From Anaerolineae bacterium (GTDB lineage Bacteria > Chloroflexota > Anaerolineae > Aggregatilineales > Phototrophicaceae): a DNA stretch of 64,000 nt. The notes below the pieces were generated by a model. The model saw only the letters and a list, made by a program, of their open reading frames with translations. It ran no database searches and was not told the DNA's origin. Both the position numbers and the translations under genes were made by a program. The stretch is taken from the NCBI GenBank assembly GCA_013360465.1, contig JABWBO010000003.1, forward strand, positions 1-64,000, written 5' to 3'. How positions within the stretch are numbered: the stretch's first letter is position 1; every line of letters begins with the position of its first letter. This document shows, in pieces, positions 1,258 through 14,672 of this stretch.

Positions 1258-1495
1258 AGAGCGCATGGACTTGCGCGCGGTTCTTACAAACCAACGAGCC
1301 GCCCACAAGTTGACGAGGTGACGGTTGCACATGTCGAAGTGTGCTTAAGCCCGCATGACAGGGCGCGGGCGAAAATCGAGCGATCAGCGGATGCCGTCGG
1401 AGGCGATCCACCGCCTCAGTCTGGTCCCCCACCCAACAACTTAAGCGCACCGTGAAACCGCCGGGCGACCGAGCGAACAGCCGCTGCGCGTGTGG
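1258..1495 (+). ncRNA. glmS ribozyme/riboswitch
   Basis: A self-cleaving RNA that uses glucosamine-6-phosphate as cofactor and lowers expression of the downstream glmS. The conserved parts are present in order. The cleavage region AGCGCATGGACTTG puts the predicted cut between A1260 and G1261. P1 pairs ACTTG (1269-1273) with CAAGT (1306-1310). The core GTTGACGAGG is at 1309-1318. P2 pairs TGACGG (1319-1324) with CCGTCG (1394-1399). The AATCGAG segment is at 1374-1380, GCGGATGCC at 1387-1395, a P3 hairpin GAGGCG/CGCCTC at 1400-1417, and a P4-like GCGCA/TGCGC closes around GTGAAACCG (1444-1490). Unusually, about 46 bases with two extra hairpins (1327-1344 and 1349-1370) are inserted between the 5' strand of P2 and AATCGAG. 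Identification rests on the core motifs plus the position directly before glmS. Confidence 0.93.
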
Positions 1496-1569: not shown

Positions 1570-3417
1570 ATGTGCGGAATCGTCGGTTATATCGGCAGTG
1601 GCAACGCCACCCCTATCATCGTAGAAGGACTCGCCCGGCTTGAATACCGAGGCTATGACTCGGCGGGCGTCGCCGTCATTCGCGAAGGCAAGGTCAACGT
1701 TCGGCGCGATGTCGGCAAGCTGAGCAACCTGCGTGCCAGACTGGAAACGGACCCCATCGCCGGGCACATCGGCATCGGGCACACCCGTTGGGCAACTCAC
1801 GGCGTGCCGGCTGAACACAACGCCCATCCTCATATCAGCATGGACGGCGAGTTCGTCGTCGTCCACAACGGCATCGTCGAGAACTACCTTGAACTGCGCG
1901 ATGAACTGACTGCGGAAGGCGTCGTCTTCAGTTCGGAGACCGATACTGAGGTGATCGTCCAGCTGGTCGCCCGTTTCGCCCAGGATGGCGCGCATGGCGA
2001 TGTCGCCGAAGCGACGCGCCTGGCGGTTCGTCATCTGCGCGGCGCGCACGCTATCGTCGTGATGAGCCGCCGTCAGCCGGATCGGTTAGTGGCTGTGCGC
2101 ATCGGCAATGCCGGCGGCGTTGCCCTCGGACTGGGTGAAGGCGAGATGTACATCGCCTCAGATATCCCCGCCATCCTCGAACACACCCGCAGGATGGTCT
2201 TTCTGGAGAGCCGTCAAATGGCGATCCTGACCGCCGATGGCTATCACGTCCAGGACCTCGACGGGACCCCCGCCCCAACTGCGATCCATGATATTCCCTA
2301 CGACCCGGTCAGCGCAGCAAAGGGTGAGTATCGCCACTTCATGCAGAAGGAAATCTTCGAACAGGCGCGCAGCATTACCGACACGCTGCGCGGGCGTGTC
2401 GATTTCGACCATGAAATGGTACATCTGCCAGACCTCAATCTGACCGAGGAGAGCGCCAAGGCACTGCGCCGGTTGGTCACGGTCGCCTGCGGCACAAGCT
2501 TCTACAGCGGGCTGGTCGGCAAGTTCTTTATCGAACAGATCGCACGGCTCAACGTCGAGGTCGATTATGGCAGCGAATACCGCTACCGCCGCCCAATCCT
2601 CGACGAGTACACGGCGGTCCTGGCGATCACACAGAGCGGCGAAACCGTCGATACGCTCGCAGCGGTGGAAGAGGCGCGCGACCAGCGGGCGACCGTCTGG
2701 AGCATCGTCAACGCCATCGGCAGCCAGGCGATGCGCGTATCTGACGGATACATCACCATGAACGCCGGACCAGAGATCGGCGTCGCCTCGACTAAAGCCT
2801 TCACCGCCAGCATCGTCGATCAATATCTGCTGGCGGTATACCTGGGACAGCTGCGCGGCACACTCAGCGACGAGCAGCGCCACGAACACGTCCATACCCT
2901 GGCGCGCCTGCCCGATCTGGTCGGGCACGTCCTGGATCGCGAAGCCGAAGTACGTGAACTGGCGCATCACGTTCACCAATACACGAACTTCCTCTTCCTC
3001 GGACGCGGGATCAACTACCCCATTGCCCTGGAAGGCGCGCTGAAGCTCAAGGAAATCAGCTATATTCACGCCGAAGGCTACCCGGCGGGCGAGATGAAGC
3101 ACGGACCGATTGCGCTGATCGACGAGAAGATGCCCGTACTGACCATCGCCCTGAAGGATACGCTGTACGAGAAGATGATCAGTCAGATCGAGCAGGCGAA
3201 GGCGCGCGGCGGGCTGGTCATCGCGCTGGCAACCGAAGGCGACCAGTTCATCACCACCAAGGCGGATCACGTCCTCTACATCCCGGAAGCGCCCTGGTCG
3301 CTGACTCCGATCCTGTCGGTGATCCCGCTCCAGATGCTTGCCTATTCGGTCGCCGTCCTGCGCGGTGCCGATGTCGATCAGCCGCGAAACCTGGCGAAGA
3401 GCGTCACCGTCGAATGA
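1570..3417 (+). CDS. glmS: glutamine-fructose-6-phosphate aminotransferase (isomerising)
   Basis: Makes glucosamine-6-phosphate from fructose-6-phosphate and glutamine in the cytoplasm, the first committed step to UDP-GlcNAc for peptidoglycan. The 615-residue protein has the expected layout: an N-terminal class II glutaminase domain beginning MCGIVGY, whose Cys becomes the N-terminal nucleophile, followed by two SIS sugar-isomerase domains and the conserved C-terminal tail PRNLAKSVTVE. The start is fixed by that Cys: an in-frame TTG at 1555 would add five residues and block the nucleophile, whereas ATG 1570 follows GGGAGA at a good distance. Regulation is predicted to be by the glmS ribozyme just upstream. 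The fructose-6-phosphate supply genes pfkA and pgi are elsewhere in this window. Confidence 0.97.
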   Translation: MCGIVGYIGSGNATPIIVEGLARLEYRGYDSAGVAVIREGKVNVRRDVGKLSNLRARLETDPIAGHIGIGHTRWATHGVPAEHNAHPHISMDGEFVVVHNGIVENYLELRDELTAEGVVFSSETDTEVIVQLVARFAQDGAHGDVAEATRLAVRHLRGAHAIVVMSRRQPDRLVAVRIGNAGGVALGLGEGEMYIASDIPAILEHTRRMVFLESRQMAILTADGYHVQDLDGTPAPTAIHDIPYDPVSAAKGEYRHFMQKEIFEQARSITDTLRGRVDFDHEMVHLPDLNLTEESAKALRRLVTVACGTSFYSGLVGKFFIEQIARLNVEVDYGSEYRYRRPILDEYTAVLAITQSGETVDTLAAVEEARDQRATVWSIVNAIGSQAMRVSDGYITMNAGPEIGVASTKAFTASIVDQYLLAVYLGQLRGTLSDEQRHEHVHTLARLPDLVGHVLDREAEVRELAHHVHQYTNFLFLGRGINYPIALEGALKLKEISYIHAEGYPAGEMKHGPIALIDEKMPVLTIALKDTLYEKMISQIEQAKARGGLVIALATEGDQFITTKADHVLYIPEAPWSLTPILSVIPLQMLAYSVAVLRGADVDQPRNLAKSVTVE

Positions 3418-14398: not shown

Positions 14399-14403
14399 AG
14401 AGG

Positions 14404-14580
14404 ACATCCTGCTGTGTGCGTGATGTTGCGCCAACGTTTTGAGCCAACACTCCATTAACGGGATTTGGCACTGTGGCGGCAAGGTGATAGGCACGCGCTG
14501 CCAAGACCTCAACGCTAACTCAAGTCCCACCTGCGAAAGCAGGTTCAAAACTCCGCACACACGGCACAGCAGGGGTTTTT
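14404..14580 (+). ncRNA. candidate structured non-coding RNA, 6S-like shape
   Basis: About 175 bases folded by long-range pairing. A closing stem pairs CCTGCTGTG (14408-14416) with CACAGCAGG (14565-14573) perfectly, continued by TGCG (14417-14420) with CGCA (14554-14557). A second stem pairs GTTTTGAGCC (14436-14445) with GGTTCAAAAC (14542-14551) with one G-T pair. Inside are TTGGCA/TGCCAA pairing and a CCTGC-GAAA-GCAGG tetraloop hairpin, which competes with the second stem for two bases. A 9-bp outer stem followed by GGTTTTT would also help end the transcript. Size, closed ends and an internal bubble resemble 6S RNA, but I cannot match conserved 6S bases with confidence. It is not a tRNA, RNase P or SRP RNA by motif. 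No credible reading frame lies in it. Confidence 0.5.
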
Positions 14581-14617: not shown

Positions 14618-14652
14618 GAAGGACGCGGCAGTTGCCGCGTCCTTCTTTTTTT
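14618..14652 (+). terminator. strong rho-independent terminator
   Basis: A near-perfect stem, 14618-14630 with 14633-14645, is followed by TTTTTTTG. It ends the non-coding transcript predicted from 14404 and lies just beyond the stop of the convergent AAA ATPase gene. Confidence 0.88.
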
Positions 14653-14672
14653 GCTCAACCCTTTATCAGGCA

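Follow-up and report, generated by a model that had tools for sequence, protein, structure and literature searches.

The leader of glmS in the window analysed here, i.e. the whole 64,000-nucleotide stretch of an Anaerolineae bacterium (contig JABWBO010000003.1, positions 1 to 64,000), is predicted to encode a glmS ribozyme in which the strand joining P2 to P2.1 is enlarged by two adjacent hairpins. As judged from the comparison of related sequences, this insert is a conserved structural domain under selection for pairing, and the two-hairpin layout prevails in Anaerolineae and Chloroflexia.

The glmS leader and the ribozyme core

A complete set of glmS ribozyme landmarks can be read between 1260 and 1496, ending 73 nt 5' of the glmS ATG at 1570, which bears out the claim of an earlier, sequence-only reading that a glmS ribozyme core precedes this gene. 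The product of glmS makes an amino-sugar used in cell walls. The features of the leader and of the gene are as follows.

1168-1196, +, putative sigma-70-like promoter, TTGACG-17-TAGGAT, overlapping the 3' end of the upstream acyltransferase gene
1260/1261, +, predicted self-cleavage site between A and G in the context AGA/GCGC, aligning with the invariant AGCG of 29 relatives
1262-1265, +, P2.2 5' strand, pairing with 1386-1389 (1262-1264 with 1387-1389, A1265 opposite A1386)
1268-1311, +, P1, with 1268-1273 pairing with 1306-1311; covaries among relatives
1277-1283 with 1296-1302, +, outer extension of P1, from the window sequence alone
1312-1318, +, GACGAGG core strand, invariant among the 29 aligned relatives; CGA at 1314-1316 is the first strand of P2.1
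1320-1324, +, P2 5' strand, pairing with 1394-1398; 3 of 5 pairs changed on both sides, 100% paired
1327-1344, +, inserted hairpin A, five Watson-Crick pairs and one U-G; relatives show compensatory changes at all seven pairs
1345-1348, +, linker TTAA; in relatives CTAA (41/92) or TTAA (19/92)
1349-1370, +, inserted hairpin B, six Watson-Crick pairs and a 10-nt loop
1371-1374, +, linker GAAA, directly 5' of the cofactor-pocket AU; the insert ends in GAAA in 71/95
1375-1379, +, AUCGA, contributing the A-U of the pocket and, at 1376-1378, the second P2.1 strand, which pairs with 1314-1316; AUCG invariant in the 29 relatives
1386-1398, +, P2.2 3' strand and P2 3' strand (AGCGGATGCCGTC), from alignment and covariation of relatives
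1400-1417, +, P3 hairpin, read from the window sequence
1407-1411 with 1492-1496, +, P3.1 pseudoknot between the loop UCCAC and GUGGA, five pairs by sequence reading
1445-1489, +, P4/P4.1, with a GCGA tetraloop at 1465-1468 and internal-loop adenines at 1455-1457 and 1476-1479, from the RF00234 alignment and reading
1570-3417, +, glmS, glutamine--fructose-6-phosphate aminotransferase, 615 aa, with SIS and GATase domains and 81% identity to an Anaerolineae GlmS

Its core, its position in the glmS leader and its predicted fold place the RNA in the glmS ribozyme class. The scissile A-G is followed by GCGC, and the GACGAGG and AUCGA strands and GCGGAUGCC complete the core, with GTTGACGAGG at 1309-1318 and GCGGATGCC at 1387-1395 of the window. 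The strands of the P2/P2.1/P2.2 double pseudoknot are complementary in the window and in relatives; in the 29-relative alignment covariation supports P2 and has nothing to say on P2.1 and most of P2.2, which do not vary. The P3/P3.1 pseudoknot, the P4 internal-loop adenines and the GNRA tetraloop were recognized by eye. The numbering of the core, including the P2.1 strands, follows PMC11602151, and descriptions of the Bacillus subtilis and Thermoanaerobacter tengcongensis (Tte) ribozymes are those of PMC11602151 and PMC7125110, from which the cofactor-pocket role of the AUCGA strand is also taken; the pocket strand corresponds to Tte residues 43-45 (PMC7125110). A single base, A1375, lies between the end of the insert and U1376, the start of this pocket strand.

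The fifth position of P2.2, represented in the window by A1265 and A1386, is coupled among relatives, being C-G in 25 RNAs and A.A in 86 with one exception among these two forms. The exchange implies about a dozen changes on the tree, of which only three independent pairs fall on well-supported branches, and at the border of the active site A.A apparently takes the place of C-G. Both combinations are seen in RNAs that have the insert and in RNAs that lack it, which rules out a dependence of the A.A pair on the insert. In many relatives, the P3-P4 joining strand holds a complement of the glmS ribosome-binding site, with up to 11 pairs (L017; also L012, L024, L115 and others), and 38 of 99 leaders score at least 18 as compared to about 10 expected when leaders are matched to the sites of other genomes, relatedness being uncontrolled in this comparison; in the window, 1421-1440 offers only five pairs to the ribosome-binding region 1555-1561.

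The promoter proposed earlier at 1168-1196 is supported as a putative element, this being the sole -35/-10 match in 1000-1600, where 0.1 is expected. Action of the insert as a terminator or attenuator was ruled out, since the 1000-1600 region contains neither a U-run nor a terminator-like site. Elsewhere in the window, an ORF encoding tandem repeats, each of about 19 residues (RSAHAVHVLPVNPAAT...), occupies 3-300, at the window start, and a 6S RNA (74.7 bits) lies at 14403-14579 on the + strand, with a GC hairpin and T-run resembling a terminator 3' of it, near 14620-14655.

With relaxed settings, RF00234 matches 1249-1499 end to end with 26.7 bits (E 2.5e-4), below its gathering score of 37 bits, which is a curation threshold rather than a biological feature. 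Hence, a default Rfam scan misses the ribozyme and reports the 6S RNA as the sole hit in the window. The locus is nevertheless the top RF00234 match in the 5.9 Mb genome, with a chance-like runner-up at 13.2 bits, and searches with RF00234, a clade model and sequence patterns found no second copy of the RNA in the source genome, including after its 6S RNA. The clade covariance model was built from a MAFFT alignment of 29 relatives, the window being among these training sequences, and gives 93.8 bits at the ribozyme and nothing else above 12.4 bits. With RF00234, two-hairpin relatives score 58-60 bits and a compact relative 71.7 bits. A score below threshold, which the sequence-only reading had named as grounds for rejection, was thus formally obtained for the window itself with RF00234, whereas the clade model and the relatives point the other way. 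Because homologues with the same layout pass the RF00234 threshold, homology is not in doubt, and on these alignments the low score of the window reflects the Rfam model and not the RNA. Within the order of the source genome, RF00234 matches were obtained in 87 of 151 genomes and only 30 of these lie above the cut-off, and hence annotation undercounts glmS ribozymes in this order.

Structure and distribution of the two-hairpin insert

The extent of the insert was set against compact relatives (GGTT^ATCGA), giving 48 bases (1327-1374) in the strand joining P2 to P2.1, in line with the earlier estimate of about 46 once the GAAA linker is counted. Its description as two perfect hairpins holds for hairpin B, all of whose pairs are Watson-Crick, and fails for hairpin A by the one U-G pair. 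Shuffled sequences fold equally well in 1/200 cases for hairpin A, 8/200 for hairpin B and 7/200 for both together. Evidence for the fold from the window sequence by itself is therefore moderate, and it is the comparative evidence that is decisive.

In the 29-relative alignment, which was built without structure, compensatory changes are found at 7/7 pairs of hairpin A and at 5/6 pairs of hairpin B, the sixth having letters in four sequences only, which agrees with the earlier view of a structured insertion. For the whole structure, 95.3% of cells are paired; the corresponding value is 71.6% for shuffles and does not exceed 39.1% when the partner is slid by 1-3 columns as a control. RNAalifold recovers both hairpins unprompted. 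When 83 loci were aligned to the clade model, an alignment that leans to the model, 12/12 insert pairs were found to covary, including 5/5 of hairpin B. Chance hairpins were ruled out by the covariation in these 29- and 83-sequence alignments. Hairpin A is 18 nt long in 70 of 92 two-hairpin relatives, with loops of mixed sequence (GNRA in 38/92), and hairpin B is highly variable in length, from a few pairs up to about 100 nt. No helix or loop sequence is conserved across the two-hairpin relatives; the constant elements are the fold, the length of hairpin A and the linkers. Repeat-like palindromes of the GGTTTCGATACGC...CTACTCAACCACC and CCCTCACCCC...GGGTGAGG types occur in apical P1 and hairpin B at L218, L256, L259, L262, L201 and L217, suggesting that these arms accept insertions.

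The layout, taken as isolated when it was first noticed, proved to be widespread. A phylum-wide survey of 350 genomes with the clade model gave matches in 109, and among 119 parsed glmS-linked Chloroflexota ribozymes two hairpins are present in 95, one in 9 and none in 15, fractions that are biased toward the two-hairpin form as the loci were collected partly with the two-hairpin model. Examples include Roseiflexus, Promineifilum, and Caldilineaceae and Thermoflexales bins. The surveys of the order and the phylum ruled out that the insert is a genome-specific oddity or a mobile element. In the GlmS tree, every two-hairpin row falls inside one group of Anaerolineae and Chloroflexia (support 81), compact RNAs occur in lineages outside this group, and one- and zero-hairpin forms reappear inside it. 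The simplest reading of the tree would be one gain in the common ancestor of Anaerolineae and Chloroflexia followed by several losses, with the number of such events not fixed owing to the midpoint root and many weak forks.

The role of the insert

The explanation that we regard as probable, though by no means assured, is that of a Chloroflexota-architecture glmS ribozyme with a two-hairpin domain that was gained once and kept for its pairing, likely as structural bracing of the P2-P2.1 junction. By established glmS biology, glucosamine-6-phosphate would bind the P2.1/P2.2 pocket and the leader would cut itself at 1260/1261, lowering the expression of glmS. The independently folding two-hairpin domain sits in the P2-to-P2.1 joining strand, directly 5' of the pocket A-U; it was probably acquired once, in the ancestor of Anaerolineae and Chloroflexia, and covariation shows its retention by selection for pairing, with occasional later loss. 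Hairpin A, usually of seven pairs and a tetraloop, might stack at the P2-P2.1 junction and, together with the conserved UAA and GAAA linkers, stabilize a marginally stable core, with hairpin B as a free outer arm. The glmS ribozyme core is reported to be marginally stable (PMC11602151, PMC7125110), and the adjacency of the insert to cofactor-pocket residues within such a core would favour bracing. The constant length of hairpin A and the conserved linkers, combined with mixed loops, also point to a structural function close to the junction and away from binding of a factor, and it is plausible that the insert tunes folding. Counting against bracing, the same family includes relatives with a compact RNA or a single hairpin (L003, L014, L015), which indicates that the domain is dispensable, and the minority of GNRA loops in hairpin A makes no fixed docking contact evident.

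The wide range of hairpin B and the absence of one or both hairpins in several lineages would also fit tolerated ballast, i.e. a surface loop that accepts hairpins whose pairing is kept only to spare the folding of the core, and the Tte core tolerates point insertions better than deletions (PMC7125110). Such ballast is nonetheless unlikely, although it retains some weight, given that hairpin A is of one length in most relatives, the linkers are conserved and the domain persists across Anaerolineae and Chloroflexia. Less likely by far is that the two hairpins form a second sensor or a protein-binding site modulating the ribozyme: by position alone, adjacent hairpins at the pocket could pass an allosteric signal, yet no conserved loop or bulge resembling an aptamer or protein site is present and the linkers alone are conserved, so that the earlier proposal of binding another factor gained no support. 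A decayed, inactive ribozyme with the insert as a symptom, to which the low RF00234 score might point, is very improbable, since the core bases, both pseudoknots, the tetraloop and the internal-loop adenines are all in place, covariation persists in P1, P2 and the inserted hairpins of the relatives, and relatives sharing the layout score above the Rfam cut-off. Together with the large domain inserted next to the cofactor pocket, compact and one-hairpin members of a single family provide a ready-made experiment on how the periphery supports catalysis.

Relatives ahead of glnA and ada-like genes, and comparison with known systems

In two families of Anaerolineae (f9 and f12), the clade model also matches RNAs that do not precede glmS. 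These variant RNAs, identified by patterns and the first clade model (MAFFT misplaced their AAAATCG segment), have 3' of them either a type I glutamine synthetase gene, glnA (TIGR00653, 523-557 bits; L206, L207:403-515, L209, L211, L215, L268, L275), or an ada-like gene (L213, L216, L218, L221, L256, L258, L259, L262 and others). A pattern search found them in 15 of 396 genomes of the class, all in f9/f12, and not in the genome of the window. In an alignment of 11 sequences, P1, P2 and hairpin A are kept with covariation, AGCG[G/A]CUG replaces the AGCGC of glmS ribozymes, and CUG/CAG complementarity is invariant (11/11); the likeliest reading of AGCG[G/A]CUG is a longer P2.2 that contains a bulged purine. 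With RF00234, L211 (47.7 bits) and L209 (42.9 bits) exceed the Rfam glmS threshold, and hence such RNAs may already count as glmS ribozymes in databases.

In six loci (L213, L216, L258, L268, L272, L275), the variant RNA is closely preceded by a 6S RNA. By sequence reading, most f9 loci, as well as L206 and L275, have a terminator-like palindrome 3' of the variant RNA, and their P3-P4 strand contains CCCUUCC, the complement of a GGAAGGG that precedes the palindrome; a terminator scan picks out L216 and L206, a yield close to that expected from shuffled sequences. Pairing of CCCUUCC with GGAAGGG before an intrinsic terminator could constitute a riboswitch-like attenuator at several loci. Tentatively, and with nearly as much to be said for it as against it, the two-hairpin glmS fold may have been copied and repurposed ahead of glnA or the ada-like gene, with another ligand or no self-cleavage. 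Whether a ribozyme that depends on a cofactor can give rise to a different regulator could be examined in these relatives. At L203:2689-2813 (-), a two-hairpin ribozyme of ordinary core (AGCGC) is followed by a long ORF whose product by eye resembles a glutamate-synthase-type protein and not GlmS.

Literature searches, with most subscription journals outside their reach, retrieved no description of the Chloroflexota two-hairpin glmS layout and nothing relevant on glmS ribozymes before glnA. Extra stems in the glmS ribozyme core are not without precedent, as Deinococcus-Thermus variants described by McCown, Roth and Breaker in 2011 reportedly have additional stems in the catalytic core; the likeness extends to the presence of such stems in the core, and no Deinococcus was among the best matches listed in a plasmid search. 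With the RF00234 ribozymes of T. tengcongensis, Bacillus anthracis and B. subtilis, the window RNA shares the gene position, the cleavage-site context, the P2/P2.1/P2.2 double pseudoknot, P3/P3.1, the P4 internal-loop adenines and the GNRA tetraloop, and it differs from them in the 48-nt two-hairpin domain of the P2-P2.1 strand, the A.A at the fifth position of P2.2 and a long P1 arm. The glnA/ada-linked RNAs resemble the window ribozyme in the two hairpins, the UAA linker, P2, P1 and the P2.1 strand and, where read, P3, P4 and the GNRA loop, but differ in having AGCG[G/A]CUG at the cleavage-site helix, other genes and, in several cases, a transcription terminator instead of the glmS start site. 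Thus, the Chloroflexota layout represents a new form within the known glmS ribozyme class, and the glnA/ada-linked RNAs are the more novel lead.
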